A stretch of DNA of 64,000 nt from Argopecten irradians. Taxonomy: Eukaryota > Mollusca > Bivalvia > Pectinida > Pectinidae. Position numbers and translations under genes: made by a program. The stretch's first letter is position 1. The number at the start of each line of letters is the position of its first letter. Under the pieces are notes generated by a model. That model had not been told where the DNA came from. It searched no databases and saw nothing but the letters and a program-made list of their open reading frames with translations. The stretch spans positions 20,488,864 through 20,552,863 of the forward strand of contig NC_091140.1 of NCBI RefSeq assembly GCF_041381155.1, written 5' to 3'. Shown here one piece after another: positions 19,759 to 59,697 of this stretch.

Positions 19759-21497
19759 TCAATGCTTTCTAGTTTTTGAGCCTTTTCGTTTCCTTGTGGT
19801 TTGTTGCGTATCCAAAACCGTCGCTTCCATTGTTGGTACTCTCACCAAGAGATGTATCGGCTCTTCAGAAGGTTTGCCATTTCTTTCAAACACTTTATTT
19901 GTCCCAGTTTCTAACTTTCCTGTCTCCAAAACTTCCGGAAATTCCGCTACGTCATCGCATCGACTGTTGTTTCTGACGCTTTCGTCTAAAGGAGAATGGT
20001 ATCCTTGATATTTCTGCTGTTTGCTGTTTTTGGCCCAGCCGTTTACTTCTGGTAGTTGCAATGGCGGAAGTTTCCCGCCGTTTAACATGCTTGCACGCCC
20101 TTTTTGCATGTCCTCCTTTTGATTCTGTACTTTCCGTTTTCGTTTAAGTACAATATGACCGGGTATGGGCGGAAGCTTCTTGTAATCTGCTCGGCAAACG
20201 TCGGACAGACGCATTTTCCTATCGGATGACAGCTGCTGTGGCATTAATGGCGGCAAAGAAACCCTTGGCGGATGTTTTGATTTCTCTTGGTGTTCCTGTT
20301 GGGACGAGCGCGAGTTGTCTGAGAGGGGTTGTAATGGAGGAAAACGGACATTCTGGTTCTCATATCGCGTATACGGACCAGCACTAGAATTCACGTTATT
20401 CGATTTTTCTGAAGTAAGGTATTCCACTTTGCTGTCATATTTTGTATTGTTCTTTTCCTTAGCGCCATTTCTGTCTCTATAAGGCTCGAGTCTATTTTGT
20501 CCATTTTTTGAAAATGTGTACTTGACATTGTCTATCGAGAATATGATCTGACTATTTGACCCGAATCTCTCACACAATGAACATTTTGACAAAGCGGATG
20601 TATTTGCTCCCTTCTTTACCGTAATTAGTGCGTTTTTGGGCTGGTGATTTTCGTCTGACCTTGATGAGGAAACGGATGACCTTTGAGAAGAGCTTGCTAT
20701 GGGGGACGTTTTCTCCATGATGGTAGGGAGGACCTCTACGATACCACATCTGCCATGACAGTACGGCATGGAGTGTATCTTATCAAGGTCCTCGTCATCG
20801 TCATCCTGCAGTGCGCGTCTCTGCTTCGCACTGTCACCTCCCATGCTGCTTTTCGAAACATGCGGAGACGTCATCCCTTGAGAGACTTCCGGTGATTCTT
20901 GTAACACACGCCTTCCATCACCTTGGTGCGCTAATTCCTCTTGGATTCCTTGCCAAGCAAGATCATCACGTGGTGAATTCATGACGGAATGGTTCGGGGT
21001 GTTGTAGTGTTTTGTTTCTGCTCCCCATGGTTTCAAATATCGTATCATGTTGGCTGCAGCGTTTGTATTCGTTGATTCCTTTCTAAGAAGCATCGAAGCC
21101 TCTTGAAAGATATCGCCAACACTGACCCCAGTCCCGCTCGGAACCGCTCGGTCACCACACAACAGAAACTCAGAGAAACATTTCCGAACGGGCTGGTTGT
21201 TAATTTCAGGCACCATGAGAGGTCGGAATTCATCTCTCTTTGTCCAAGATAAATTATTTAACGTATTCAGTGCTGTTTTGCTGTTATCTTGGTTTTGCTC
21301 ACAGTTTGTGTACGATCGCGTGGATATACTGTCCCTTCCAGAATCATTGACGTTATATGTGTCTAGTTCTTTCTTATTTCGCCATTCGCGTACCGCTTGT
21401 TGAATTCGCTCCAAGCCCTGTTTGGCATCCAAGATGGCTACGTGGTGCTCTATTTCCGGTAAGTTTACCACCGACCTGTTTCGGGTGAGGACTTGAT
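19759..21497 (-). CDS. Large terminal exon of the unrecognised protein
   Basis: A 1739-nt exon with no internal stop, much longer than chance in DNA this AT-rich. It starts in phase 1 (two bases complete a codon) after a near-ideal polypyrimidine acceptor. In its first codons there is no ATG, so an upstream exon is required. Confidence 0.85.
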
Positions 21498-22706
21498 CTA
21501 TAGACAGACCAAAAAATTGTGAGATATTACTATGTATTCATGCGTAAATTGGTAAAAATCAATGTAAACAAGGCAAATGCCTATTGCTCTCAACTATCTA
21601 TCTTAAATAGATATGGAAGCTATAATACATGCATACCTCGAAAAGCAAAATTAAATATTTTTCATGCAATCAAGTTTTTATACGATTCTGCTTAGGCGTT
21701 GTAAATTTCAGTTTATCTCATCTTAGAAATAGATTTGTGTAGTTCGAATATAAACCGCGAGACAAGAAAGTCAAGAATGGAAATTCTATTTTAACCTAAT
21801 GACAATCAAATAATTATAACGTTTTCACGAGAAATAAGTTTTCTCATTTATGCACCAAAGTGGATTCAACATTTTTTGTCGCATTTTCTCCTTCCTGTTA
21901 GTTTTGGTGCCGTGAACAGGAAGGTCTTTTATAAGGTAGCCCGTCTAAGCTTACAGAACAAGGACAGTAATACTTTTACATGAATATCTCAATGTCTCTG
22001 TAGTAGAATTTTGCTGCATTCGTTTTGAATATGAGAGTCAACGAAGTAAACATATGAATTTGTAAGATTTATTTTTTAACGACAACCGAGGATATTCCCT
22101 ATATACGTAGTTACATAACTAGTAAACCCCAGATTATACTTTTCAAAATTAGATTAAGACTTTTATAATGAATAAGGTTTTGAGCACTGACCGTTAACGT
22201 ATATCGAATAACCACAGAAAAATATATCTTGAAATTTTAGTTTTAGATTTCGGATATCTTATGATTCAGAAACAAACTAACGATTAAATATCAACTATAA
22301 AAAAATGCATATAGATTAGCCTATAATTGTTATCATTCAATCATATTGAAACTATACATTTAATGGGCACAATGTAAAATATAAATATGTAATAGGAGCG
22401 GAGAAATGCACGGCCAAGTGCGGGGTTCAGACTCGGGGTCCTTTTTCTTATTGACCAACCCAGAATTGTTACAAATATATCTACATTGATTTTGAAAGAA
22501 AGAAGATAGACAAACAAATAATACAATATAAACATATGTTTCTTAGAATCGCTATATAGACATTCAGTTGTTATTGACAGAATTGCGAAATCCATTTCAG
22601 TTTACGGTGTACACAAAATATATGCATTGCTATTCCGGAATTCGAAGTGACCGGTCTACAGAGGTATCATAACGTAAGGTTATATTAAAGTGTACTTACA
22701 CTTCAT
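19759..22706 (-). CDS. Unrecognised disordered basic protein, about 581 aa
   Basis: A large terminal exon (19759-21497) stays open for 578 codons after a TTTTTTGGTCTGTCTATAG acceptor. A short exon at 22700-22706 supplies ATG AAG T before GTAAGT, giving the start MKYQVLTRNRSVVNLPEIEH; this join is inferred from phase and splice sites. I do not recognise the family. An N-terminal helical stretch (AILDAKQGLERIQQAVREW) is followed by long polar, Ser/Asn/Lys-rich sequence. A Cys pair (KCSLCERF) occurs mid-protein. Four short proline motifs (FPPLQPL, LPPLMP, LPPIPG, LPPLQLP) lie in the C-terminal half, and the end is very basic (RKRKGSKTRKH), suggesting a nuclear or cytoskeletal scaffold role. Codon use and length make it a real gene. 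A possible poly(A) signal is at 19596-19601. Confidence 0.8.
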
Positions 22707-29455: not shown

Positions 29456-29496
29456 CTAGGCATCAGAGAGAGCTTTCACACCTGGTAGTACTTTAC
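29456..29496 (-). CDS. PGK: PGK exon 12 (terminal) and stop
   Basis: After an AATTTTCAG acceptor the exon completes the split Gly codon and reads [12 protein letters not shown], then TAG at 29458-29456. This is the standard PGK C-terminus. A possible poly(A) signal (AATAAA on the minus strand) is at 28963-28968, which would give a 3' UTR of about 500 nt. Confidence 0.95.
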
Positions 29497-32400
29497 CTGA
29501 AAATTAAACAAAACAATTTTAGATCATTCATTGTATCGTAAACTAAACTAACAAGTCTCCTCTGTGACAACTTATACCTTAAAATTGCTGGAAATGTGAA
29601 GACATTTCAGACAGAACAAAGAAATACAGCTAAATGAATATTTTGACACTATCAACAATTCAAGCTAGTGTACTCCCCGAAGACTCTCAGGACCTTAACA
29701 TTCCTTCAAACAACTGGTTCTGTCATCCTGTAATGACATGACCTTGACTTATCTTCCAATAACTCCAGACTGGCTCTGACCCCTGTACTGACATGACCTT
29801 GACTTATCTTCCAATAACTCCAGCCTGGCTTCACCCCCTGTACTGACATGACCTTGACTTATCTTCCAATAACTCCAGACTGGCTCCGCTCCCTGTACTG
29901 ACATGACCTTGACTTACCTTCCAATAACTCCAGACTGGCTCCGCCCCCTGTACTGACATGACCTTGACTTACCTTCCAATAACTCCAGACTGGCTTCGCC
30001 CCCTGTACTGACATGACCTTGACTTACCTTCCAATAACTCCAGACTGGCTCCGCCCCCTGTACTGACATGACCTTGACTTACCTTCCAATAACTCCAGAC
30101 TGGCTCCGCCCCCTGAACTGACATGACTTACCTTCCAATAACTCCAGACTGGTCCCGTCCCCTGTAGTGACATGACATTTTACCTTCTAATAACATCAGA
30201 CTGGCTTCACCCCCTGTACTGACATGACTTACCTTCCAATAACTCCAGACTCGCTCCGCCCCTTGAACTGACATGACCTTGACTTATCTTCCAATAACTC
30301 ATGACCTTGACTTACCTTCCAATAACTCCAGACTGGTCCCGCACCCTGTACTGACATGACGTTTTACCTTCCAATAACTCCAGACTGGCTTCACCCCCTG
30401 TACTGAAATGGATTACCTTTCAATAACTCCAGACTAGCTCCGCCCCCTGTACTGACATGACCTTGACTTACCTTCCAATAACTCCAGACTAGCTCCGCCC
30501 CCTGTACTGACATGACCTTGACTTACCTTCCAATAACTCCAGACTGGCTCCGCCCCCTGTACTGACATGACCTTGACTTACCTTCCAATAACTCCAGACT
30601 GGCCCCGCCCCCTGTACTGACATGCCCTTTACTTACCTTCCAATAACTCCAGACTAGCTCCGCCTCCTGAACTGACATGACTTACCTTCCAATAACTCCA
30701 GACTAGCTCCGCCCCTTGTACTGACATGACCTTGACTTACCTTCATATAACTCCAAACTAGCGTCGCTCCCTGTACTGACATGACGTTTTACCTTCCAAT
30801 AACTCCAGACTGGCTCAGCCCCCTGTACTGACATGACCTTGACTTTCTTTCCAATAATTCCAGACTAGCTCCGCCCCCTGTACTGACATGCCCTTGACTT
30901 TCTTTCCAATAATTCCAGACTGGCTTCGCCCTCTGTACTGACATGACGTTTTATCTTCCAATAATCCAGACTGGCTCCACCCCCTGTACTGACATGCCCT
31001 TGACTTTCTTTCTAATAACTCCAGACTAGCTCCGCCCCCTGAACTGACATGCCCTTTACTTACCTAGCAATAACTCCAGACTAGCTCTGCCCCCTGAACT
31101 GACATGACCTTGACTTTCTTTCTAATAACTCCAGACTAGCTCTGCCCCCTGAACTGACATGACCTTGACTTACCTTTCAATAACTCCAGACTAACTCCGC
31201 CCCCTGAACTGACATGACCTTGACTTACCTTTCAATAACTCCAGACTAACTCCGCCCCCTGAACTGACATGACCTTGACTTACCTTTCAATAACTCCAGA
31301 CTAACTCCGCCCCCTGAACTGACATGACCTTGACTTACCTTTCAATAACTCCAGACTAACTCCGCCCCCTGAACTGATATGACCTTGACTTACCTTCCAA
31401 TAACTCCAGACTGGCTCCGCCCCCTGTACTGACATGGCTGACTTTATTCTCCGTGTTATATTTAGCTGCACATGTGGCTGTATCACCTCCACCTGTAATA
31501 GATGTTCAGATATGTATAAAGTTTTAATCTCATTGTAGATAAGATGCAATAACTAAATTCAATTCTTTAATATTTTTATAAAATGGACTAATAAAAGAGA
31601 TTTTGTATTTCTACAAAACTTGCTATGGAAGTATAACATGAATGAAATGAACATATAAAATCAACAACAAACAAGTGATCCCAGAGGGATCTTTGCGCCC
31701 ACCAAAGAATGATCTACATATATGTACGTCTTACAATGGAAAGAGATATCTTTACTTTGCTTTTCAAACTTTTACTACATATTACTACATATGAAATTTG
31801 AAAACTATCCTTTCAGTACTTTCTGATATATAACAGTAACAAACTTAAATTAGATTTGATCGCGATCAAAACACGGGATTTCCACCTATGTAATGATATA
31901 AGTAATGTTAGCGAACAGACGATTGCTTGAACGAACGGACGATCTCACTCAATATTAATCAGAAAGCGTTTCTTACGAAAGTAGTCTGGTCCAACTGAAA
32001 AACAGATTTAGGGGAATCCCCCTTTGGGCAGAAGATTTCATAGAGAGGTGAATATATCGGAGCCTGCTGATTGGATATATTCAGGGTACATTAGTTAATG
32101 GTTAATGTGTGGGTCGGGCAATAGATGTAGATGTAAAATTTGTAAAGAATTTTGATAACTTCATTTAACCTGAATAGAAGCAAACGTTAACACGGTCCTC
32201 TATGGGAATTTATTTGGTTCTGTGATCTCAAAACGGCCTGGTATTTTCCCAAAATAGCACCGGTTGTGTTTGAACATCCTGTGTCACAGGTGACAGCTCT
32301 GCCACACACATAAAAGGTTTTTAAACCTGTCAGTTATTGGGTTTGTGCATTACTTTTGTTGTTTGTTTGTTCAAATGTACGTCCTATTAACAGCTAGGGT

Positions 32401-35400
32401 CATGTAAGGACGGCCTCCCATGTATGCGGTGTAGCTACACATGTACGTGTACTTACGCAAACATGTGTACATTGTTCATATATACGTGTACATGTAGAAC
32501 TTAAAACATCCCGAAAAGTATTCAAAACTTAATGAAAAAAGACCTTCGAAACGGCCCGTGTGTATACAAGATTGAGCCCAGGACAGAATTTTAACGCGGC
32601 CGCTGATTGGCTGGCTGATTATGAATTTCAAAATTAAAAATGTTTTCTGTTTTCAGTTTGAATCACATGACCTTGAAATTAGTCATATTTTGTGTCTGTG
32701 ATCATGCTCTTTAACATCCAATTCAAAACACTTCTCTTTGAAATTCATCAATTACGGTAAAATTTACGTTAAAAAGTGAACGAAATGCCATATTCAGAGA
32801 GCTATATTTCCGCCATTTTCAAATTCGTTACTTTGAAATTAAAACTCTGTACAGAGAATGTGCCAACGTCTATATTTACAAACAATCAACACCTTACAAT
32901 AAATGATAAAGGCGCTACGAGCTCAGAAATTACGTAAAAAAATAAGGAAATGAAACAAATTACCATATTTGGAGAGCTATATATCCGCCATTTTTCTATA
33001 TCACCCCTTGAAATTCATAGTTTTGTAAACAAAAGTTCTTAGAACACAGATACGAAAAATGAAGACTGTACATAAAGATTTAAAGGCGCTGAAACGTCTC
33101 GTGCAGGGACAAATATAAACTAAAATTTCGATTTTTGATGTCCTATATCTCCGCCATTTTGAATCATATGACCTTGAAATTGGTCATTTTATGTTCCTGA
33201 GAGCATGATCTGTCATATGCTTCATTCAAGACTTTTCTGTGACGAATTTCGTTTTTGACCTTTGCTGAACCCCATAGCTACTCTTGACCTTGACATAATC
33301 TCTGATAACATGGCATGAGAAAAGCATGCGAAATGTCAGGATCTGTCTGCATAACTAAACGTGGAAGATGTACAGCGTACAGTTATGAAGTTATGAGTGT
33401 TTAAAGTTCGTTAAAAAAAGTAGTTTTTTACGTCTGTGACCTTGACCTTGAACGTTATCGTAAAGCACTCATGTACGTACATAACGTGTCCAAATTTCAG
33501 TGCTCTACGCCTCTTATTTATAAAGAAGAAGTAGTTTAAAGATTTAAAGCTTTTTGAACCCTGTGACCTTGAATGAATGTCAAGGTCAATAAAACAGCAT
33601 AAGTTCTGTAGACATTCGTCCATGCTATGTCTATACAAAACTTCAAGCATGTATGTTTAGTATTAAAGGCGCTGAAACCTTGTACATTTTTGGCGGGAAA
33701 ACGCCAAAATAGCCTTTTTTCAAAGGCCTATATCTCCGCCATTTTGGATCTCATGACCTTAAAACTTGTCATTATATATTTCTGAGGGCATGCCCTTTCA
33801 TATCCAATTTTCAAAACTTTTCTGTGGTGAATTTCGTTTTGACCTTTGTTTGACCCCGTAGCGAACTCTTGACCTTGACATAATCTCTGATAACATGGCA
33901 TGGGAATAGCACGTGCAATGTCAAGATCTGTCTGGATAACAAAGCGTGAACGATGTACAGCGTACGGTAATGAAGTTATGAGCGTTTAAACTTCGTTCCG
34001 AAAAATTTGTTTTTTACGTCTGTGACCTTGACCTTGAACCTTATCGTACAAACTCGAACGTACGTTTCAAGCACTCATGTACATACATAACGCATCCAAA
34101 GTTGAGCATTGTACCTTATTCCATTCCTGAGATATCCTGCTAACAAGATTTGTGGAAATAAGAAAAAAAAAAAGAAAATCAATAAGAAGAAAAAAAACAG
34201 AACAATAACAATAGGGATTTCCATCCGTAAATGGAAATCCCTAATTAACAAAATTCAAGATGGCTACCTGGCAGCCATCTTGTTGACCGATTGGTCCCAA
34301 TATGCAATATGAATAACTAGGGCCAAAGGGGAACCTATATATCTACATATGAAAATTGAGAAAGATCCCTTATACATAATTAGGTTTCTTCTGAGAAATA
34401 GCGGTAACAAGAAATGTTAACGGACAGAAGGACGGTCCACAGACCACGGAAGAAAAGCGATTTGAATAGCTCACTATCTGAAAATGGTGGGCTAAAAAGT
34501 AGAGATACATTTATATTAAATCTGCCTGTGTATAAAACTTTTTCAAACCTTATCTATGAATTCTGATTGATACACAAATAATTTTGTCGATCCAAGTGGT
34601 TGTAATTAATTTCTTCATGAGTGGTATATAACGGTGCTGCCATTGCCATAAAAAAACCCAAAACAACCCAACCTTAGCCATGTTTTCCTTGACTAATGTC
34701 AAATCCAAGACAAAAAACTTCCTATATAGATATATGTATGTAACCTACCAATGATAGTGGTGGCTCCACCTTCTGTAGTTAAGCCAAGACAAAAAACTTC
34801 CTATATAGATATATGTATGTAACCTACCAATGATAGTGGTGGCTCCATCTTCTGTAGTTAAGCCAAGAAAACAAACTTCCTATATAGATATATATATATG
34901 TAACCTACCAATGATAGTGGTGGCTCCACCTTCTGTAGTTAAGCCAAGACAAAAAACTTCCTATATAGATATATATATATGTAACCTACCAATGATAGTG
35001 GTGGCTCCACCTTCTGTAGTTAAGCCAAGACAACAAACTTACTATATAGATATATGTATATAACCTACCAATGATAGTCTTGGCTCCACCTTCTATAGTT
35101 AAGCCAAGACAACAAACTTCCTATACAGATATATGTATGTAACCTACCAATGATAGTGGTGGCTCCACCTTCTGTAGTTAAGCCAAGACAACAAACTTCC
35201 TATATAGATATATGTATGTAACCTACCAATGATAGTGGTGGCTCCACCTTCTGTAGTTAAGCCAAGACAACAAACTTCCTATACAGATATATGTATGTAA
35301 CCTACCAATGATAGTGGTGGCTCCACCTTCTGTAGTTAAGCCAAGACAACAAACTTCCTATACAGATATATGTATGTAACCTACCAATGATAGTCTTAGC

Positions 35401-38400
35401 TCCACCTTCTATAGTCAAGCCAAGACAACAAACTTCCTATATAGTTATATGTATGTAACCTACCAATGATAGTGGTGGCTCCACCTTCTGTAATTAAGCC
35501 AAGACAAAAATCTTCCTATATAGATATATGTATGTAACCTACCAATGATAGTCTTGGCTCCACCTTCTGTAGTTAAGCCAAGACAAAAAACTTCCTATAT
35601 AGATATATGTATGTAACCTACCAATGATAGTGGTGGCTCCACCTTCTGTAGTTAAGCCAAGACAACAAACTTCCTATATAGATATATGTATGTAACCTAC
35701 CAATGATAGTGGTGGCTCCACCTTCTGTAGTTAAGCCAAGACAACAAACTTCCTATACAGATATATGTATGTAACCTACCAATGATAGTCTTGGCTCCAC
35801 CTTCTGTAGTTAAGCCAAGACAACAAACTTCCTATATAGATATATGTATGTAACCTACCAATGATAGTGGTGGCTCCACCTTCTGTAGTTAAGCCAAGAC
35901 AACAAACTTACTATAGATATATGTATGTAACCTACCAATGATAGTGGTGGCTCCACCTTCTGTAGTTAAGCCAAGACAAAAAACTTCCTATATAGATATA
36001 TGTATGTAACCTACCAATGATAGTGGTGGCTCCACCTTCTGTAGTTAAGCCAAGACAAAAAACTTCCTATATAGATATATGTATGTAACCTACCAATGAT
36101 AGTGGTGGCTCCACCTTCTGTAGTTAAGCCAAGACAACAAACTTCTATATACAGATATATGTATGTAACCTACCAATGATAGTGGTGGCTCCACCTTCTG
36201 TAGTTAAGCCAAGACAAAAAACTTCCTATATAGATATATGTATGTAACCTACCAATGATAGTGGTGGCTCCACCTTCTGTAGTTAAGCCAAGACAAAAAA
36301 CTTCCTATATAGATATATGTATGTAACCTACCAATGATAGTCTTGGCTCCACCTTCTGTAGTTAAGCCAAGACAACAAACTTACTATAAATATATGTATG
36401 TAACCTACCAATGATAGTGGTGGCTCCACCTTCTGTAATTAAGCCAAGACAACAAACTTTCTATACAGATATATGTATGTAACCTACCAATGATAGTGGT
36501 GGCTCCACCTTCTGTAGTTAAGCCAAGACAACAAACTTCCTATATAGATATATGTATGTAACCTACCAATGATAGTGGTGGCTCCACCTTCTGTAGTTAA
36601 GCCAAGACAAAAAACTTCCTATATAGATATATGTATGTAACCTACCAATGATAGTCATGGCTCCACCTTCTGTAGTTAAGCCAAGACAACAAACTTACTA
36701 TAGATATATGTATGTAACCTACCAATGATAGTGGTGGCTCCACCTTCTGTAGTTAAGCCAAGACAACAAACTTCCTATATAGATATATGTATGTAACCTA
36801 CCAATGATAGTGGTGGCTCCACCTTCTGTAGTTAAGCCAAGACAACAAACTTCCTATACAGATATATGTATGTAACCTACCAATGATAGTGGTGGCTCCA
36901 CCTTCTGTAGTTAAGCCAAGACAACAAACTTCCTATACAGATATATGTATGTAACCTACCAATGATAGTGGTGGCTCCACCTTCTGTAGTTAAGCCAAGA
37001 CAACAAACTTACTATAGATATATGTATGTAACCTACCAATGATAGTCATGGCTCCACCTTCTGTAGTTAAGTCAAGACAACAAACTTCCTATATAGATAT
37101 ATGTATGTAACCTACCAATGATAGTCATGGCTCCACCTTCTGTAGTTAAGCCAAGACAACAAACTTACTATAGATATATGTATGTAACCTACCAATGATA
37201 GTGGTGGCTCCACCTTCTGTAGTTAAGCCAAGACAACAAACTTCCTATACAGATATATGTATGTAACCTACCAATGATAGTGGTGGCTCCACCTTCTGTA
37301 GTTAAGCCAAGACAACAAACTTCCTATATAGATATATGTATGTAACCTACCAATGATAGTCATGGCTCCACCTTCTGTAGTTAAGTCAAGACAACAAACT
37401 TCCTATATAGATATATGTATGTAACCTACCAATTATAGTCATGGCTCCATCTTCTAAAGTTAAGCCAAGACAACAAACTTACTATAGATATATGTATGTA
37501 ACCTAACAATGATAGTGGTGGCTCCACCTTCTGTAGTTAAGCCAAGACAACAAACTTCCTATATAGATATATGTATGTAACCTACCAATGATAGTGGTGG
37601 CTCCACCTTCTGTAGTTAAGCCAAGACAACAAACTTCCTATACAGATATATGTATGTAACCTACCAATGATAGTGGTGGCTCCACCTTCTGTAGTTAAGC
37701 CAAGACAACAAACTTACTATATAGATATATGTATGTAACCTACCAATGATAGTGGTGGCTCCACCTTCTGTAGTTAAGCCAAGACAACAAACTTACTATA
37801 GATATATGTATGTAACCTACCAATGATAGTGGTGGCTCCACCTTCTGTAGTTAAGCCAAGACAACAAACTTACTATAGATATATGTATGTAACCTACCAA
37901 TGATAGTCTTGGCTCCACCTTCTGTAGTTAAGCCAAGACAACAAACTTCCTATACAGATATATGTATGTAACCTACCAATGATAGTGGTGGCTCCACCTT
38001 CTGTAGTTAAGCCAAGACAACAAACTTACTATAGATATATGTATGTAACCTACCAATGATAGTGGTGGCTCCACCTTCTGTAGTTAAGCCAAGACAACAA
38101 ACTTCCTTTATAGATATATGTATGTAACCTACCAATGATAGTGGTGGCTCCACCTTCTGTAATTAAGCCAAGACAAAAATCTTCCTATATAGATATATGT
38201 ATGTAACCTACCAATGATAGTCTTGGCTCCACCTTCTGTAGTTAAGCCAAGACAAAAAACTTCCTATATAGATATATGTATGTAACCTACCAATGATAGT
38301 GGTGGCTCCACCTTCTGTAGTTAAGCCAAGACAACAAACTTCCTATAGATATATGTATGTAACCTACCAATGATAGTCTTGGCTCCACCTTCTATAGTTA

Positions 38401-41400
38401 AGCCAAGACAAAAAACTTCCTATACAGATATATGTATATAACCTACCAATGATAGTGGTGGCTCCACCTTCTGTAGTTAAGCCAAGACAACAAACTTACT
38501 ATAGATATATGTATGTAACCTACCAATGATAGTCATGGCTCCACCTTCTGTAGTTAAGTCAAGACAACAAACTTCCTATATAGATATATGTATATAACCT
38601 ACCAATGATAGTGGTGGCTCCACCTTCTGTAGTTAAGCCAAGACAACAAACTTCCTATACAGATATATGTATGTAACCTACCAATGATAGTGGTGGCTCC
38701 ACCTTCTGTAGTTAAGCCAAGACAACAAACTTCCTATATAGATATATGTATGTAACCTACCAATGATAGTGGTGGCTCCACCTTCTGTAGTTAAGCCAAG
38801 ACAACAAACTTCCTATATAGATATATGTATGTAACCTACCAATGATAGTGGTGGCTCCACCTTCTGTAGTTAAGCCAAGACAACAAACTTACTATAGATA
38901 TATGTATGTAACCTACCAATGATAGTCTTGGCTCCACCTTCTGTAGTTAAGTCAAGACAACAAACTTCCTATACAGATATATGTATGTAACCTACCAATG
39001 ATAGTGGTGGCTCCACCTTCTGTAGTTAAGCCAAGACAACAAACTTCCTATATAGATATATGTATGTAACCTACCAATGATAGTGGTGGCTCCACCTTCT
39101 GTAGTTAAGCCAAGACAACAAACTTACTATAGATATATGTATGTAACCTACCAATGATAGTCTTGGCTCCACCTTCTGTAGTTAAGCCAAGACAACAAAC
39201 TTCCTATATAGATATATGTATGTAACCTACCAATGATAGTGGTGGCTCCACCTTCTGTAGTTAAGCCAAGACAACAAACTTCCTATACAGATATATGTAT
39301 GTAACCTACCAATGATAGTGGTGGCTCCACCTTCTGTAGTTAAGCCAAGACAACAAACTTCCTATATAGATATATGTATGTAACCTACCAATGATAGTGG
39401 TGGCTCCACCTTCTGTAGTTAAGCCAAGACAACAAACTTCTTATACAGATATATGTATATAACCTACCAATGATAGTGGTGGCTCCACCTTCTGTAGTTA
39501 AGCCAAGACAACAAACTTACTATAGATATATGTATGTAACCTACCAATGATAGTGGTGGCTCCACCTTCTGTAGTTAAGCCAAGACAACAAACTTCCTAT
39601 ATAGATATATGTATATAACCTACCAATGATAGTGGTGGCTCCACCTTCTGTAGTTAAGCCAAGACAACAAACTTACTATAGATATATGTATGTAACCTAC
39701 CAATGATAGTGGTGGCTCCACCTTCTGTAGTTAAGCCAAGACAAAAAACTTCCTATATAGATATATGTATGTAACCTACCAATGATAGTGGTGGCTCCAC
39801 CTTCTATAGTTAAGCCAAGACAACAAACTTCTTATACAGATATATGTATGTAACCTACCAATGATAGTGGTGGCTCCACCTTCTGTAGTTAAGCCAAGAC
39901 AACAAACTTCCTATATAGATATATGTATGTAACCTACCAATGATAGTGGTGGCTCCACCTTCTGTAGTTAAGCCAAGACAACAAACTTCCTATATAGATA
40001 TATGTATGTAACCTACCAATGATAGTGGTGGCTCCACCTTCTGTAGTTAAGCCAAGACAACAAACTTCCTATATAGATATATGTATGTAACCTACCAATG
40101 ATAGTGGTGGCTCCACCTTCTGTAGTTAAGCCAAGACAACAAACTTACTATAGATATATGTATGTAACCTACCAATGATAGTGGTGGCTCCACCTTCTGT
40201 AGTTAAGCCAAGACAACAAACTTACTATATAGATATATGTATGTAACCTACCAATGATAGTGGTGGCTCCACCTTCTGTAGTTAAGCCAAGACAACAAAC
40301 TTACTATAGATATATGTATGTAACCTACCAATGATAGTGGTGGCTCCACCTTCTGTAGTTAAGCCAAGACAACAAACTTCCTATATAGATATATGTATGT
40401 AACCTACCAATGATAGTGGTGGCTCCACCTTCTGTAGTTAAGCCAAGACAACAAACTTCCTATATAGATATATGTATGTAACCTACCAATGATAGTGGTG
40501 GCTCCACCTTCTGTAGTTAAGCCAAGACAACAAACTTCCTATATAGATATATGTATGTAACCTACCAATGATAGTGGTGGCTCCACCTTCTGTAGTTAAG
40601 CCAAGACAACAAACTTACTATAGATATATGTATGTAACCTACCAATGATAGTGGTGGCTCCACCTTCTGTAGTTAAGCCAAGACAACAAACTTCCTATAT
40701 AGATATATGTATGTAACCTACCAATGATAGTGGTGGCTCCACCTTCTGTAGTTAAGCCAAGACAACAAACTTCCTATATAGATATATGTATGTAACCTAC
40801 CAATGATAGTGGTGGCTCCACCTTCTGTAGTTAAGTCAAGATAACAAACTTCCTATATAGATATATGTATGTAACCTACCAATGATAGTGGTGGCTCCAA
40901 CTTCTGTAGTTAAGCCAAGACAAAAAACTTCCTATATAGATATATGTATGTAACCTACCAATGATAGTGGTGGCTCCACCTTCTGTAGTTAAGCCAAGAC
41001 AACAAACTTCCTATATAGATATATGTATGTAACCTACCAATGATAGTGGTGGCTCCACCTTCTGTAGTTAAGCCAAGACAACAAACTTCCTATATAGATA
41101 TATGTATGTAACCTACCAATGATAGTGGTGGCTCCACCTTCTGTAGTTAAGCCAAGACAACAAACTTCCTATATAGATATATGTATGTAACCTACCAATG
41201 ATAGTGGTGGCTCCACCTTCTGTAGTTAAGCCAAGACAACAAACTTCCTATACAGATATATGTATGTAACCTACCAATGATAGTGGTGGCTCCACCTTCT
41301 GTAGTTAAGCCAAGACAACAAACTTCCTATATAGATATATGTATGTAACCTACCAATGATAGTGGTGGCTCCACCTTCTGTAGTTAAGCCAAGACAACAA

Positions 41401-44400
41401 ACTTACTATATAGATATATATATATGTAACCTACCAATGATAGTGGTGGCTCCACCTTCTGTAGTTAAGCCAAGACAACAAACTTCCTATACAGATATAT
41501 GTATGTAACCTACCAATGATAGTGGTGGCTCCACCTTCTGTAGTTAAGCCAAGACAACAAACTTCCTATATAGATATATGTATGTAACCTACCAATGATA
41601 GTGGTGGCTCCACCTTCTGTAGTTAAGCCAAGACAAAAAACTTCCTATATAGATATATGTATGTAACCTACCAATGATAGTGGTGGCTCCACCTTCTGTA
41701 GTTAAGCCAAGACAACAAACTTCCTATACAGATATATGTATGTAACCTACCAATGATAGTGGTGGCTCCACCTTCTGTAGTTAAGCCAAGACAACAAACT
41801 TCCTATACAGATATATGTATGTAACCTACCAATGATAGTGGTGGCTCCACCTTCTGTAGTTAAGCCAAGACAACAAACTTCCTATATAGATATATGTATG
41901 TAACCTACCAATGATAGTGGTGGCTCCACCTTCTGTAGTTAAGCCAAGACAAAAAACTTCCTATATAGATATATATATATGTAACCTACCAATGATAGTG
42001 GTGGCTCCACCTTCTGTAGTTAAGCCAAGACAACAAACTTCCTATATAGATATATGTATGTAACCTACCAATGATAGTGGTGGCTCCACCTTCTGTAGTT
42101 AAGCCAAGACAAAAAACTTCCTATATAGATATATGTATGTAACCTACCAATGATAGTGGTGGCTCCACCTTCTGTAGTTAAGCCAAGACAACAAACTTCC
42201 TATATAGATATATGTATGTAACCTACCAATGATAGTGGTGGCTCCACCTTCTGTAGTTAAGCCAAGACAACAAACTTACTATAGATATATGTATGTAACC
42301 TACCAATGATAGTGGTGGCTCCACCTTCTGTAGTTAAGCCAAGACAACAAACTTCCTATATAGATATATGTATGTAACCTACCAATGATAGTGGTGGCTC
42401 CACCTTCTGTAGTTAAGCCAAGACAACAAACTTCCTATAAGATATATGTATGTAACCTACCAATGATAGTGGTGGCTCCACCTTCTGTAGTTAAGCCAAG
42501 ACAACAAACTTCCTATATAGATATATGTATGTAACCTACCAATGATAGTGGTGGCTCCACCTTCTGTAGTTAAGCCAAGACAACAAACTTCCTATATAGA
42601 TATATGTATGTAACCTACCAATGATAGTGGTGGCTCCACCTTCTGTAGTTAAGCCAAGACAACAAACTTCCTATATAGATATATGTATGTAACCTACCAA
42701 TGATAGTGGTGGCTCCACCTTCTGTAGTTAAGCCAAGACAACAAACTTCCTATATAGATATATGTATGTAACCTACCAATGATAGTGGTGGCTCCACCTT
42801 CTGTAGTTAAGCCAAGACAACAAACTTCCTATATAGATATATGTATGTAACCTACCAATGATAGTGGTGGCTCCACCTTCTGTAGTTAAGCCAAGACAAC
42901 AAACTTCCTATATAGATATATGTATGTAACCTACCAATGATAGTGGTGGCTCCACCTTCTGTAATTAAGCCAAGACAAAAATCTTCCTATATAGATATAT
43001 GTATGTAACCTACCAATGATAGTCTTGGCTCCAACTTCTGTAGTTAAGCCAAGACAAAAAACTTCCTATATAGATATATGTATGTAACCTACCAATGATA
43101 GTGGTGGCTCCACCTTCTGTAGTTAAGCCAAGACAACAAACTTCCTATATAGATATATGTATGTAACCTACCAATGATAGTGGTGGCTCCACCTTCTGTA
43201 GTTAAGCCAAGACAACAAACTTCCTATATAGATATATGTATGTAACCTACCAATGATAGTGGTGGCTCCACCTTCTGTAGTTAAGCCAAGACAACAAACT
43301 TCCTATATAGATATATGTATGTAACCTACCAATGATAGTGGTGGCTCCACCTTCTGTAGTTAAGCCAAGACAACAAACTTCCTATATAGATATATGTATG
43401 TAACCTACCAATGATAGTGGTGGCTCCACCTTCTGTAGTTAAGCCAAGACAACAAACTTCCTATATAGATATATGTATGTAACCTACCAATGATAGTGGT
43501 GGCTCCACCTTCTGTAGTTAAGCCAAGACAACAAACTTCCTATATAGATATATGTATGTAACCTACCAATGATAGTGGTGGCTCCACCTTCTGTAGTTAA
43601 GCCAAGACAACAAACTTCCTATATAGATATATGTATGTAACCTACCAATGATAGTGGTGGCTCCACCTTCTGTAGTTAAGCCAAGACAACAAACTTCCTA
43701 TACAGATATATGTATGTAACCTACCAATGATAGTGGTGGCTCCACCTTCTGTAGTTAAGCCAAGACAACAAACTTCCTATATAGATATATGTATGTAACC
43801 TACCAATGATAGTGGTGGCTCCACCTTCTGTAGTTAAGCCAAGACAACAAACTTCCTATATAGATATATGTATGTAACCTACCAATGATAGTGGTGGCTC
43901 CACCTTCTGTAGTTAAGCCAAGACAACAAACTTCCTATATAGATATATGTATGTAACCTACCAATGATAGTGGTGGCTCCACCTTCTGTAGTTAAGCCAA
44001 GACAACAAACTTCCTATAGATATATGTATGTAACCTACCAATGATAGTGGTGGCTCCACCTTCTGTAGTTAAGCCAAGACAACAAACTTCCTATATAGAT
44101 ATATGTATGTAACCTACCAATGATAGTGGTGGCTCCACCTTCTGTAGTTAAGCCAAGACAACAAACTTCCTATATAGAATATATGTATGTAACCTACCAA
44201 TGATAGTGGTGGCTCCACCTTCTGTAGTTAAGCCAAGACAACAAACTTCCTATATAGATATATGTATGTAACCTACCAATGATAGTGGTGGCTCCACCTT
44301 CTGTAGTTAAGCCAAGACAAACTCTAAGAAACTTACCATATAGTGGTGATTCTGTAGTATAAGCCAGACAACAAACCTATGTATGTAACTACCAATGATA

Positions 44401-47400
44401 GTGGTGGCTCCACCTTCTGTAGTTAAGCCAAGACAACAAACTTCCTATATAGATATATGTATGTAACCTACCAATGATAGTGGTGGCTCCACCTTCTGTA
44501 GTTAAGCCAAGACAACAAACTTCCTATATAGATATATGTATGTAACCTACCAATGATAGTGGTGGCTCCACCTTCTGTAGTTAAGCCAAGACAACAAACT
44601 TCCTATATAGATATATGTATGTAACCTACCAATGATAGTGGTGGCTCCACCTTCTGTAGTTAAGCCAAGACAACAAACTTCCTATATAGATATATGTATG
44701 TAACCTACCAATGATAGTGGTGGCTCCACCTTCTGTAGTTAAGCCAAGACAACAAACTTCCTATATAGATATATGTATGTAACCTACCAATGATAGTGGT
44801 GGCTCCACCTTCTGTAGTTAAGCCAAGACAAACAAACTTCCTATATAGATATATGTATGTAACCTACCAATGATAGTGGTGGCTCCACCTTCTGTAGTTA
44901 AGCCAAGACACAACAAACTTCCTATAAGATATATGTATGTAACCTACCAATGATAGTGGTGGCTCCACCTTCTGTAGTTAAGCCAAGACAACAAACTTCC
45001 TATATAGATATATGTATGTAACCTACCAATGATAGTGGTGGCTCCACCTTCTGTAGTTAAGCCAAGACAACAAACTTCCTATATAGATATATGTATGTAA
45101 CCTACCAATGATAGTGGTGGCTCCACCTTCTGTAGTTAAGCCAAGACAACAAACTTCCTATATAGATATATGTATGTAACCTACCAATGATAGTGGTGGC
45201 TCCACCTTCTGTAGTTAAGCCAAGACAACAAACTTCCTATATAGATATATGTATGTAACCTACCAATGATAGTGGTGGCTCCACCTTCTGTAGTTAAGCC
45301 AAGACAACAAACTTCCTATATAGATATATGTATGTAACCTACCAATGATAGTGGTGGCTCCACCTTCTGTAGTTAAGCCAAGACAACAAACTTCCTATAT
45401 AGATATATGTATGTAACCTACCAATGATAGTGGTGGCTCCACCTTCTGTAGTTAAGCCAAGACAACAAACTTCCTATATAGATATATGTATGTAACCTAC
45501 CAATGATAGTGGTGGCTCCACCTTCTGTAGTTAAGCCAAGACAACAAACTTCCTATATAGATATATGTATGTAAACCTACCAATGATAGTGGTGGCTCCA
45601 CCTTCTGTAGTTAAGCCAAGACAACAAACTTCCTATATAGATATATGTATGTAACCTACCAATGATAGTGGTGGCTCCACCTTCTGTAGTTAAGCCAAGA
45701 CAAACAAACTTCCTATATAGATATATGTATGTAACCTACCAATGATAGTGGTGGCTCCACCTTCTGTAGTTAAGCCAAGACAACAAACTTCCTATATAGA
45801 TATATGTATGTAACCTACCAATGATAGTGGTGGCTCCACCTTCTGTAGTTAAGCCAAGACAACAAACTTCCTATATAGATATATGTATGTAACCTACCAA
45901 TGATAGTGGTGGCTCCACCTTCTGATATAACCCTGGTAGGTTAGAGAAAGTATTCCTGTTGTGTAGGGTTATGGTGTTGTTTTGTGATATAACCCTGGTA
46001 GGTTAGAGAAAGTATTCCTGTAGGGTAATGGTGTAACCTACCAATGATAGTGGTGGCTCCACCTTCTGTAGTAGCCAAGAGTAGGGTTATGGTGTTGTTT
46101 TGTGATATAACCCTGGTAGGTTAGAGAAAGTATTCCTGTTGTGTAGGGTTATGGTGTTGTTTTGTGATATAACCCAGGTAGGTTAGAGATAGCTTTCCTG
46201 TTGTGTAGGGTTATGGTGTTATTTTGTGATATAACCCTGGTAGGTTAGAGAAAGTATTCCTGTTGTGTAGGTTATGGTGTTATTTTGTGATATAACCCTG
46301 GTAGGTTAGAGAAAGTATTCCTGTTGTGTAGGTTATGGTGTTATTTTGTGATATAACCCTGGTAGGTTAGAGATAGCTTTCCTGTTGTGTAGGGTTATGG
46401 TGTTATTTTGTGATATAACCCTGGTAGGTTAGAGAAAGTATTCCTGTTGTGTAGGGTTATGGTGTTATTTTGTGATATAACCCTGGTAGGTTAGAGAAAG
46501 TATTCCTGTTGTGTAGGTTATGGTGTTATTTTGTGATATAACCCTGGTAGGTTAGAGATAGTATTCCTGTTGTGTAGGTTATGGTGTTATTTTGTGATAT
46601 AACCCTGGTAGGTTAGAGAAAGTATTCCTGTTGTGTAGGTTATGGTGTTATTTTGTGATATAACCCTGGTAGGTTAGAGAAAGTATTCCTGTTGTGTAGG
46701 TTATGGTGTTATTTTGTGATATAACCCTGGTAGGTTAGAGATAGCTTTCCTGTTGTGTAGGGTTATGGTGTTATTTTGTGATATAACCCTGGTAGGTTAG
46801 AGAAAGTATTCCTGTTGTGTAGGTTATGGTGTTATTTTGTGATATAACCCTGGTAGGTTAGAGATAGCTTTCCTGTTGTGTAGGGTTATGGTGTTATTTT
46901 GTGATATAACCCTAGTAGGTTAGAGAAAGTATTCCTGTTGTGTAGGGTTATGGTGTTATTTTGTGATATAACCCTAGTAGGTTAGAGAAAGTATTCCTGT
47001 TGTGTAGGGTTATGGTGTTATTTTGTGATATAACCCTAGTAGGTTAGAGAAAGTATTCCTGTTGTGTAGGGTTATGGTGTTTTTTGTGATATAACCCTAG
47101 TAGGTTAGAGAAAGTATTCCTGTTGTGTAGGGTTATGGTGTTGTTTTGTGATATAACCCTGTAGGTTAGAGAAAGTATTCCTGTTGTGTAGGGTTATGGT
47201 GTTGTTTTGTGATATAACCCTGGTAGGTTAGAGAAAGTATTCCTGTTGTGTAGGGTTATGGTGTTGTTTTGTGATATAACCCTGGTAGGTTAGAGAAAGT
47301 ATTCCTGTTGTGTAGGGTTATGGTGTTGTTTTGTGATATAACCCTGGTAGGTTAGAGAAAGTATTCCTGTTGTGTAGGGTTATGGTGTTGTTTTGTGATA

Positions 47401-50400
47401 TAACCCTGGTAGGTTAGAGAAAGTATTCCTGTTGTGTAGGGTTATGGTGTTATTTTATGATATAACCCTGGTAGGTTAGAGAAAGTATTCCTGTTGTATA
47501 GGGTTATGGTGTTGTTTTGTGATATAACCCTGGTAGGTTAGAGATAGCTTTCCTGTTGTGTAGGGTTATGGTGTTATTTTGTGATATAACCCTGATAGGT
47601 TAGAGAAAGTATTCCTGTTGTGTAGGTTATGGTGTTATTTTGTGATATAACCCAGGTAGGTTAGAGAAAGTATTCCTATTGTGTAGGGTTATGGTGTTAT
47701 TTTATGATATAACCCAGGTAGGTTAGAGAAAGTATTCCTGTTGTGTAGGTTATGGTGTTATTTTGTGATATAACCCAGGTAGGTTAGAGAAAGTATTCTT
47801 GTTGTGTAGGGTTATGGTGTTATTTTGTGATATAACCCTAGTTGGTTAGAGAAAGTATTCCTGTTGCGTAGGGTTATGGTGTTGTTTTGTGATATAACCC
47901 TGGTAGGTTAGAGAAAGTATTCCTGTTGCGTAGGGTTATGGTGTTGTTTTGTGATATAACCCTAGTTGGTTAGAGAAAGTATTCCTGTTGTGTAGGGTTA
48001 TTGTGTTATTTTGTGATATAAACCTGGTAGGTTAGAGAAAGTATTCCTGTTGTGTAGGGTTATGGTGTTGTTTTGTGATATAACCCTGGTAGGTTAGAGA
48101 AAGTATTCCTGTTGTGAAGGGCTATGGTGTTATTTTGTGATATATTGATTAAACTTACCCATTCCAGACAATAGTTTTAGCTCTGCTGATAACTGTTTCA
48201 AATGCTTTAGAGGACTCCGGTCCAATATCCAAGCCCTGTAATAGTTAAAGGTATGTGTAATGGTAGTGTTCAGATGTAAATCAATAATTTGAAGCAGTTT
48301 AATCATAAATCATGAAAAACACAAAATGGAAGCATGTTAAACATATTGTGATTTAATTGACCAGAGGAAAATAAAATGTCGGCGACTTATTACCATGTGG
48401 CCATCAGGAATTCCAGATTCCACAGTAGCTGCTCCAACTGCTGCGTCTTCAGCAAACTTGTCCCCTGTAACAAAGTCGACAGGTAGATGGATCTGTACAC
48501 CCTTGTCCTTAGCTTTGTCCATTAGTTTCTGGATGATCTTAGATCCCTCCTCGTCATACAGGGAACCGCCAATCTATCAAATCAACAATGAAACTAAATA
48601 TATCAAATCAACAATGAAACTAAATATATCAAATCAACAATGAAACTAAATATATCAAATCAACAATGAAACTAAATATATCAAATCAACAATGAAACTA
48701 AATATATCAAATCAACAATGAAACTAAATATATCAAATCAACAATGAAACTAAATATATCAAATCAACAATGAAACTTAATATATCAAATCAACAATGAA
48801 ACTAAATATATCAAATCAACAATGAAACTAAATATATCAAATCAACAATGAAACTAAATATATCAAATCAACAATGAAACTAAATATATCAAAACAACAA
48901 TGAAACTAAATAAAACCAATATTTAATTTTTTTACAATTTCGATTCCTCATCAAACAGGGAACCACCAATCTATCAAATCAACAATAAAACTAAATAAAA
49001 CCAATATTAAATCTTTTTTGATCTTAAATTCCTCATCATACAGGGAACCGCCAATCTATCAAATCAACAATGAAACTTAATATATCAAATCAACAATGAA
49101 ACTAAATATATCAAATCAACAATAAAACTAAATAAAACCAATATTTAATCTTTTGAGATCTTAAATTCCTCGCCAATCTATCAAATCAACCATTTTAATA
49201 CATGTAAAAGTCCATGAGAAAATTGCATCACAACTACCTTTTCTTACATAATGCATTTATAAATAAGTTCAAATAAATTTACTTGTTTGTTGGGCAATGT
49301 AAGGTTTCAATGCCTATAACCTTACAATCAAAACATGTTAATCAAGTCTAAAATGTTCTGATTCACAACCTCTGAGCTCATATGGTATTTTAAAGTCATT
49401 CAAATCAATTTTTAAAAGAAATATTGTTTTATGACAGTAGGACTAAATGATGTACATAGTACTGGGACAATTGACAAACAGACAATAATCACAACTGATA
49501 GAATCTTGGTAATTTAAAAACATTAAAAACATCATGATTATGAAGCTGTGATTGCAAAATTTATTAATTGGGTTAAAATCAATTTTTCATTGTAGTATAT
49601 CACTTTGTCATCTAAAATCATTTTACATATATCTTGTAATATGGATGTCCCTTTCCCTTTATCAAGGATTTTACAATCTATCAGTTGTATTCAGACTTTC
49701 GACTCTCACCTGCATGTTTTTGAGGACCTTAAGGAAGGTGAAGGCCATACCACCTCCGATAATCATTTCGTTGACCTTGTCCAACATGTTCTCTATCAGT
49801 TGGATCTTATCCGCCACCTTGGCTCTGTAACCAGACAACAATCATGTACAAACGTTTTCATTTCTATTTGACCTAAAAACACCATATCAAGACAAACGTT
49901 CACCTCCAAAACAAATATTTATTTATAAAATATGACTTCATATCTTTTTTACTGCATCATTAATTATCGCACCTCGGACAGAAATGTCCCCAAATGATTG
50001 GCGGAGAGCCGTCACGTGGTGACCCCCTAACACTTTATAGGGGGTCAGTAAATTTTATTATGGTGCAATATGGCGGCTGTCGCCCTCGCTTCAAAATTTA
50101 AACACATTCTCTTCAACTAAATATACCACTTCATTACCGTAAAACTATATATTACTTGTTAATTTTTGTGTAAAAATAATTTTAATCGTTTTAATACTTC
50201 AAATTAAATGAAATGCATTTTTTTAAATACGAGTTGCTTCCCCTACTCCAGTTTGAAAGTTGATGACGAGGCGAAAGTCAAACGTAGCAATTCAAGCATT
50301 TTCTAGACTGTGATTATAAACAAATGGAGGTGTTCGGACCCACAGATCAATCCTCACTCTACAACCAATTTTTCGGCATAACTTTTCAGTGATTATCTCA

Positions 50401-56400: not shown

Positions 56401-59400
56401 CGTACATGTAACTTTAAAAAGTGTGAATGTAAGAACTCAATGTTGAAATAATTGACAATACACTGAATCAATGCATAATACATATTACAGTGGAGCTCTT
56501 TTTCAAAATGCAATTGACCATAATGTTTTGAATATTGTGACAATACCGTAAACACAATTTTGATAAATCCTAAACCTGGCAAAGACTCTCTGATTTGGTT
56601 TTCACATTGAAATTATTGAATTTGTATTCTTAGTTAGGAAAAGGCATTTCTGGTGCATCTTAATAAAGAGCTGCAGCACAAATACTTAATACTTCCTATT
56701 AACTGAAATGCTCTTACTTGAATGATATTTTTGTTGGACTGGAATTTCCCATTTTTGATAATAACAAGAGATCCCAATGGGATCTTGGCACCCACCAAAG
56801 AATGATCTACATCTAACAATGGAAAGAGAGATCTTTTCTATGCTTTTCAAACTTTTTCAAACATACTACGCATAAAGTATGAGAAATAGCGGTAACAAAC
56901 TTCAATTATCAAAATCCAAGATGGCTGTCTGTTGGCCATCTTGTTCACCGATCAGTCTTAAAATGCAATATGCACAACTACGGTCCTTGGGAAACCTACA
57001 TATGAAATTTGAGAAAGATCCCTTTAGTATTTTCTGAGAAATAGATGTAACAATTTTGAACTACCAAAATGCAATTCATATATTTAGGGTCCTATGGGAA
57101 CCTATATGAAATTTGAGAAAGATCCCTTCCGTACTTTCTGAGAAATAGCGGTAACAAACTTTAATTACCAAAATCCAAGATGGCGACCAGTTGGCCATGT
57201 TGTTAACCGATTGGTCCTGAAATGCAATATGCACAACTAGGTCCCTAGGGGACCATGAAATTTGAGAAAAATCCCTTCAGTACTTTCTGAGAAATAGTGG
57301 TAACAAACTTTAACTAACAAAATCCAAGATGGCTGCCTGGCGGCCATCTAATTGACCGATCGGTCGAAAAAAGCAATATGCACAACTAGGTCCCTAGGTG
57401 AACATATACATATGAAATTTGAGAAAGATCCCTTTAGTACTTTTTGAGATATAGCGATAACAAACTTTAACTAACAAAATCCAAGATGGCTGCCCGGCGG
57501 CCATCTTGTTGATCAATCTATCCCAAAATGCAATATGCACATTTAGGGTCCTAGGGTGAACCTACATATGAAATTAATTTGAGAAAGATCCTTTCCGTCT
57601 TTCTGAGAAATAGTGGTATAACAAACTTTAATTACCAAAATCCAAGATGGCGGCCAGTTGGCCATCTTGTTAACCGATTGGTCCCGAAATGCAATATGTA
57701 CAAATAGGTCCTTAGGGGACCATGAAATTTGAGAAAAATCCCTTCAGTACTTTCTGAGAAATAGTGGTAACAAACTTTAACTACCAAAATCAAAGATGGC
57801 TGCGCATGCCTGGCCGCCATCTTGTTGATCAATCTATCCCAAAATGCAATATGCACATTTAGGGTCCTAGGGTAAACATACATATGAAATTTGAGAAAGA
57901 TCCTTTCTGTCTTTCTGAGAAATAGTGGTGTAACAAACTTTGAATTACCAAAATCCAAGATGGGGATTAGTTGCCATCTTGTTGACCGATTGGTCGAAAA
58001 AAGCAATATGCACAACTAGGTCCCTGGGGGAACACATACATATGAAATTTGAGAAAGATCCCTTCCGCACTTTCTTAGAAATAGCAGTAACAAACTTTAA
58101 TTACCAAAATCCAAGATGGCGGCCAGTTGGCCATCTTGTTAACCGATTGGTCCCGAAATGCAATATGTACAACTAGGTCCTTAGGGGACCATGAAATTTG
58201 AGAAAAATCCCTTCAGTACTTTCTGAGAAATAGTGGTAACAAACTTTAACTACCAAAATCAAAGATGGCTGCGCATGCCTGGCCACCATCTTGTTGATCA
58301 ATCTATCCCAAAATGCAAGATGCACATTTAGGGTCCTAGGGTGAACCTGCATATGAAATTTGAGAAAGATCCTTTCTGTCTTTCTGAGAAATAGCGGTAT
58401 AACAAACTTTAATTACCAAAATCCAAGATGGCAACCAGTTGGCCTTCTTGTTGACCGATCGGTCGAAAAAAGCAATATGCACAACTAGGTCCCTCGGGGA
58501 ACATATACTATGAAATTTGAGAAAGATCCCTTTAGTACTTTCTGAAATATAGCGGTAACAAACTTTAACTAACAAAATCCAAGATGGCTGCCTGGCGACC
58601 ATCTTGTTGACCGATCGGTCCCAAAATGCAATATGTACAACTAGGGCCCTGGGGGAACCTATCAAATTTGAAAAAGATCCCTTTAGCACTTTCTGAGAAA
58701 TAGTGGTAACAAGAATTGTTTACGGACGGACTGACGGATGGAAGGACCACGGACGAAAAGCAATATTTGAATAGCCCACAATCTAAAAAGAGTAGGATGA
58801 GTTGTTAAAATGATACATTGATATGTATAACGTTACAGCATTTTTGTGAATCGAGAAGTGATACACTAATGAAAACCAATTGTATGCACTATATATACTG
58901 ATCCAACCCTTATAGAGTCCATAATATCCACAAACTAATGATTAATGAAACTACCAGCTACACTTTTATTTGTTTTTTTGTTACATGTAGAGTGACTGGG
59001 TATTGTACAATAAAAAATTATATACATTGTACTAGGGGGCACGGGATATGTAGATAGCTTCTGCTATTCATAGCCGCTATGAAAATTAGAAAAATACATG
59101 TACATTCAATGATTTTCAATCCCTATGTAACAGTATCAGCTCCATCACTAAATAAGCTTATGGCAATTTTGAAATCTGACAGATGGGGTGATCCCGATCT
59201 ATGGGTAACAGAGAGTGATGAGAACAATGATCCATAGACTATTCTATTTGTTTAAAGGATATAAGACAATGTCACCCCCTGTTTGGAGCCTCATATGTCA
59301 TGTACACGATATACGTGACATTCAAGCCGTCCTTGATAGAAGTCAAGGTCAGGCGGGCGAATGCATTCTAAAGATGTTTTTATAGTGCAGATTACAGATG

Positions 59401-59503: not shown

Positions 59504-59697
59504 TATTATCACGGATTCTGGTCGTGAGAATGAAACTTCTTTGCCAAAAAATAAACACAACCGGCAAAGTATAGCTTTTTGACCGTCAATTAAAAACTTC
59601 TGCAAAGAGCGATAACTCTGTAGGAAGAAAACCTAGGCGGCAATTTTAAATATCGCAGATATATAAAACATGAACAGAGGATACGTTTGATATGTGT

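Follow-up and report, generated by a model that had tools for sequence, protein, structure and literature searches.

How does an intron of a housekeeping gene come to hold more than 100 tandem copies of a piece of exon together with its splice site? The question is raised by a 64,000-nt stretch of the Argopecten irradians genome (contig NC_091140.1, positions 20,488,864 to 20,552,863; hereafter the window), whose minus strand carries a phosphoglycerate kinase (PGK) gene with its ATG at 59503 and its stop at 29456. Within this gene lies a long array of a 79-bp unit, and the sequence supports the reading that this unit is the end of PGK exon 10 plus its 5' splice site, apparently amplified inside its own gene and in the right phase to join exon 11. 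We consider it about 70% probable that the array is an intronic minisatellite that was born at an exon-intron border and carried along as a passenger, and that the body of exon 10 was lost by assembly or by a recent deletion. Everything reported here was read from this one assembled sequence, and positions are those of the window.

We located 11 of the 12 expected PGK exons (Table 1), with GT and AG at all internal borders and an open frame. When joined, exons 1-9 match positions 1-311 of the Pfam profile PF00162 (400.3 bits, E 1.1e-119), while the exon 10 tail together with exons 11 and 12 matches positions 335-379 (56.1 bits). The top matches of the gene product in the Protein Data Bank (PDB) are chains called phosphoglycerate kinase or PGK 1. 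The profile is matched along the exons, but the coding sequence is not complete, with positions 312-334 left uncovered.

A preliminary description of this DNA put the array at about 140 copies over about 11 kb, and a unit-by-unit alignment over 34705-45921 bears this out, giving 143 units, 142 of them full. Tandem Repeats Finder places it at 34705-45924 in overlapping rows, with 96% matches for 34705-44320 and 99% for 44378-45924. With its head-to-tail units of 10-100 bp, many copies and high identity, it fits the definition of a minisatellite. On the minus strand the consensus unit reads AAGGTGGAGCCACCACTATCATTG followed by the donor GTAGGT. The statement that each copy retains the exon codons and the donor was too strong: GGATTII is kept in 122/142 units and GTAGGT in 139/142, and both are kept in 120/142. 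The first T of GGATTII has become K or M in 17/142 units (2 of them also have V or D for the first G), V or D is the sole change in 2/142, and indels are found in 1/142. The string TTGGTAGGT, which spans the donor, occurs 141 times on the minus strand at 34700-46095 and 0 times elsewhere in the window.

After the tail peptide come a single G, belonging to the next codon, and the donor, which makes a phase 1 end. Exon 11 starts in phase 1 (acag/GTGGAGGTGAT), and the join reads IIG-GGDTAT, so the proposed fit in phase to exon 11 is confirmed. With 10 tail residues added, the Pfam PGK score of exons 11-12 climbs from 45.1 to 54.7 bits (+9.6), and the match starts at position 338 instead of 345. 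The eight-residue match alone was equalled by 46 of 20000 first-order Markov random units, so it is the combination of match, phase, strand and place that identifies the tail. A chance match of GGATTIIG, named at the outset as a possible refutation, is made unlikely by the strand, the phase, the place and the 9.6-bit gain at adjoining profile positions, and the proposal that a PGK exon end and its 5' splice site were amplified within their own gene appears to stand. An exon end plus a donor, in a phase that suits the exon that follows, is found both in this array and in a 55-bp array at exon 11, described below.

A lone stray copy of the exon 10 tail differs from the array. All of the full units (142/142) have two extra bases (CTTGGCTTAACTACAG), whereas the stray copy at 46078 reads CTTGGCTACTACAG, and because of these two bases only about 10-11 codons of the 79-bp unit are in frame. 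Since the stray copy aligns gap-free with known PGK, the two bases are probably an insertion, and the founder of the array would have been a copy rather than the working exon end.

The edges of the 79-bp array suggest how it may have arisen. At the far end the sequence reads ...TTTTTTGTCTTGG/ATTTGACATTAG, the array ending directly after GTCTTGG and the single-copy intron continuing with ATTTGAC. On the exon side the stray copy (...CCCTAC/TCTTGGCTACTACAG) starts at TCTTGG, which is thus found at both edges. We propose that TCTTGG was a short direct repeat, present once in exon 10 and once in intron 10, whose two copies flanked the 5' splice site at a distance of about one unit from each other, and that slippage or unequal exchange between the two repeats duplicated the exon tail and the donor. 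The array would afterwards have grown chiefly at its exon-side edge. In blocks of 20 units counted from the exon side, the mean differences per unit are 0.80, 0.50, 0.70, 1.25, 2.15, 2.45 and 2.00, with 1.00 for the final single unit. Units identical to the consensus make up 18/20 of the first exon-side block and 3/20 of the last full block, and the Spearman coefficient for this polarity is -0.54 (141 units, omitting one that is rearranged and the partial one).

We noted further arrays at the exon borders of this gene. A like event at the end of exon 11 may have produced the 55-bp array, the short direct repeats (CATGTCA-TACAGG) being CATGTCAgTACAGG in the exon and CATGTCAtTACAGG in the intron; 13/15 bases agree between CATGTCAGTACAGGG, which lies in the exon, and CATGTCATTACAGGA, which lies where the array ends on its far side. 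The donor GT is present in 23/31 of the units and absent in 8/31, and the far units at 30569, 30070 and 29960 equal the real exon 11 end over 55 nt while its closest neighbours differ. Another such event could have taken place on the acceptor side at exon 8, where the 26-bp array has 12 copies of TTGATAT and a single TTGATAG, the latter at the exon. In the 62-bp array of intron 9, 31/35 sites have an AG after CTAACC that is possibly an acceptor; as an array of acceptors, however, this unit is a weak candidate, since its acceptor score does not support it. These arrays at exons 8, 9 and 11, on which the preliminary description is silent, make the 79-bp array part of a pattern in the PGK gene. 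A located exon border is no more than 14 nt away for 3 of the 5 larger arrays in the gene, the distance being 2234 nt for the 79-bp array, because its own exon is missing, and 653 nt for the array in intron 1. Random placement inside the same introns gave at least 3 border-near arrays in 0.04% of 200000 trials, a figure that applies to five arrays picked by us and to a test framed after the data had been seen.

The intron 1 array (56982-58712) has a 157-bp unit that by eye seems to be built from a dispersed repeat, with similar sequence near 34220-34440. Outside the coding region, a 29-bp array of 48 copies at 59693-61102 begins 190 nt before the start codon of PGK.

Table 1. Exons of the PGK gene and tandem arrays at its exon borders, in window coordinates
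Feature	Position	Strand	Remarks
PGK exon 1	59503-59442	minus	
PGK exon 2	56325-56275	minus	
PGK exon 3	55883-55731	minus	
PGK exon 4	55008-54864	minus	
PGK exon 5	52198-52095	minus	
PGK exon 6	51662-51543	minus	
PGK exon 7	49824-49710	minus	
Three longer degenerate copies of acceptor and exon 8 start, in intron 7	48945-49193	minus	GATAG kept
26-bp minisatellite from acceptor side of exon 8	48571-48912	minus	abuts exon 8
PGK exon 8	48394-48573	minus	
PGK exon 9	48159-48235	minus	phase 2 end, AATGG/gtaagt
62-bp minisatellite of intron 9 sequence	45923-48144	minus	starts 14 nt past exon 9 donor
Stray copy of putative exon 10 tail, lacking the two extra bases, inside 62-bp array	46032-46081	minus	13 residues and G, then GTAGGTTACA
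79-bp minisatellite of putative exon 10 tail (some 31-34 nt of it in frame), donor GTAGGT and intron 10 sequence	34705-45921	minus	142 full units
PGK exon 11	31394-31492	minus	phase 1 start, acag/GTGGAGGTGAT
55-bp minisatellite of the final 43 nt of exon 11 with donor GTAAGT and 6 more intron nt	29727-31436	minus	31 counted units, beginning with the real exon end
PGK exon 12, stop codon included	29456-29496	minus	

The parent exon of the 55-bp array, exon 11, is intact in the same gene, whereas for the 79-bp array only the tail of exon 10 was found. The preliminary description had taken exon 10 to be present; the greater part of it did not turn up in the window. Numbered as in PDB chain 1vjc_A, exon 9 reaches residue 336 plus two bases of 337, and in the alignment the tail starts at about residue 358. 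The expected exon 10 is therefore about 101 nt long; its final 40 nt are present in the stray copy and its initial ~61 nt were not seen. A tblastn search with human PGK1 over the window, four probes (best E 1.4 among the best 40 rows) and a six-frame motif scan yielded nothing convincing for the exon 10 body in the window, which contains no N. Splicing exon 9 directly to exon 11 can be rejected, as it leads to a frameshift and a stop. Because those ~61 nt were not found in the window, an ordinary PGK is impossible from the gene as assembled.

The site expected for exon 10 is the meeting point of the 62-bp and 79-bp arrays, and two chimeric joins are found there, at 45921 and 46081. Most likely, the exon body was lost in assembly or through a recent deletion at the exon-side edge of the array: it would be expected at the growing edge, where an assembler may have dropped it between two arrays or a deletion may recently have removed it. 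A tentative alternative is that the window is a mis-assembly, an allele or a pseudogene copy in which exon 10 is really gone, so that the arrays are the debris of a dying copy. This would agree with a window that has no N and no convincing trace of the exon body, with the uncovered Pfam positions 312-334, and with the two joins of the 62-bp array to the exon tail. However, the other 11 exons have an open frame and GT-AG borders and exons 1-9 reach 400.3 bits, which indicates that decay, if any, is recent. Given that the other exons are intact, recent deletion or assembly loss seems likelier than an old pseudogene.

What would the many donors do to the transcript? The preliminary description held that all of them give the same exon end, a view that the sequence does not support. 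Because the use of a later donor retains 79-nt units in the message and brings a frameshift or stop, the donors are not equivalent and only the first gives the normal message. Keeping 1, 2 or 3 consensus units in the mRNA puts the first stop at codon 30, 28 and 28, respectively, and keeping 1, 2 or 3 of the 55-bp units puts it at codon 20 every time. Scored with a matrix from the gene's own 10 donors, the unit donor TTGGTAGGT has a score of 6.7 (the real donors, left out in turn, score 2.0-11.2), which is reached by 2.9% of the 658 GTs at 59400-48200. To judge by this score, the unit donor could be a competitor for splicing.

In our preferred reading, that of a minisatellite born at the exon border, the extra donors would be passengers: the normal message would need the first donor, and the copies would drift. 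The distinct substitutions in the 79-bp array number 11 in the 32 tail sites and 14 in the 41 other sites; the 6 donor sites, which have 1 distinct change, are too few for a judgement. Synonymous and nonsynonymous changes in this array stand at 3/7 against 26/64 possible, i.e. a neutral ratio, and in the 55-bp array at 10/27 against 31/95 possible. These ratios, neutral in both arrays, lend no support to strong purifying selection acting on the coding part of the units. It had been suggested that selection on splicing may tolerate or even use the donors; toleration is granted, but the figures, with their about equal substitution density and neutral ratio, give no demonstration of use.

Several observations weigh against this reading. 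The donors are intact in 139/142 units. Per-copy divergence in the 79-bp array is 1.5% for the tail, 0.7% for the donor and 0.7% for the 11 nt before the tail, compared with 2.95% for the intron part; once six positions above 10% are excluded, the values are 0.54% for the tail, 0.70% for the donor and 0.99% for the intron. In the 55-bp array the exonic part (7.9%) is likewise less diverged than the donor (14.1%) and the intron part (15.1%). As to the founder of the 79-bp array, there is no true exon 10 in the window to compare it with, and every full unit has the two bases beyond the stray copy. We nevertheless read the copies as near-neutral passengers, because shared variants inflate the per-copy figures, and there is room for some weak constraint on them.

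The same figures bear on a functional array, in which about 140 donors that bind U1 would aid the definition of exon 10, slow the polymerase or tune PGK output, and would be kept by selection. The intact donors, the lower per-copy divergence of tail and donor than of intron, a donor score inside the range of the gene's real donors and the second donor array at exon 11 are all in line with this. We consider it unlikely, though, as the synonymous to nonsynonymous ratio is neutral in both arrays, GT is absent in 8/31 units of the exon 11 array, and the high identity is as expected if the array has lately grown at its exon-side edge.

It is also conceivable that exon borders in this lineage are birthplaces of minisatellites and that growth at an array edge can delete an exon and substitute a chimeric one (71 or 35 nt) derived from the arrays. 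This is a long shot; if true, a housekeeping protein could carry a segment encoded by minisatellite DNA. The specific form of such an exon in this gene, an acceptor CCTACCAG from the 62-bp unit joined to the end of the exon 10 tail to give a 71- or 35-nt exon between exons 9 and 11, is very improbable. Both joins keep the frame, and no stop precedes the normal stop codon, but agreement of the two in frame is expected by chance about 1 time in 9. The resulting protein would lack the conserved segment with GVFE, which contains an ATP-contacting Glu, and the acceptor score is -0.4, a value reached by 37% of the 1965 AGs in the gene region, arrays included (matrix of 10 sites). Finally, a 24-nt micro-exon made of the acceptor-like CTTAACTACAG and GTAGGT in each unit, any unit being usable interchangeably, is barely credible, because even though the AG of the unit scores 5.7, better than 3/10 real acceptors scored with themselves left out, and ACAGAAGGTGGAGCC is present in 133 copies, it would have to follow an exon with a phase 1 end, no such exon was found, and its join to exon 9 gives a frameshift and a stop.

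Human minisatellites show polarity. The PGK arrays share with classical intronic minisatellites (variable number tandem repeats) their tandem units of tens of bp and one edge that is more uniform, but differ from them in that the unit is an exon end plus a donor and that several arrays of one gene lie at exon borders. In the notothenioid antifreeze glycoprotein gene, which came from trypsinogen, a 9-nt element across an intron-exon junction was amplified; there it gave rise to the repeated coding units of a new gene, whereas the 55- and 79-bp units of PGK have remained inside introns of their parent gene and bear a 5' splice site. Tandem duplication across an exon-intron boundary, with a multiplication of splice signals, is also shared with the AGGT model of intron gain, in which such a duplication doubles the splice signals (PMC4974935). 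In that model a single duplication gives a new intron, whereas in PGK there are tens to more than 100 copies. In the open-licence literature, judged by the titles and abstract openings of the papers listed, we found no earlier report of a minisatellite made of an exon end and a donor. A single exact-pattern scan of viral contigs gave 0 matches, as did one of genome contigs.

More than once in this one gene, a short stretch of an exon border, splice site included, appears to have been amplified into kilobases of intron. If this is common, it would be a route of intron growth and a source of massed decoy splice sites, and exons at array edges may be lost, or dropped by assemblers and gene finders. 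The locus also offers a natural test of how the spliceosome chooses the first among many identical donors.

Elsewhere in the window, a 592-aa open frame on the minus strand at 19762-21537, with no Pfam match at E 0.1, is perhaps an exon of a neighbouring gene. A 39-bp array of 93 copies at 9064-12738, with 13 codons per unit, has an open frame of up to 405 aa on the minus strand and the donor-like GTGAGT 89 times on the plus strand. Two 21-bp arrays of one unit, at 5565-5882 and 7043-7319, lie about 1.2 kb apart in inverted orientation.

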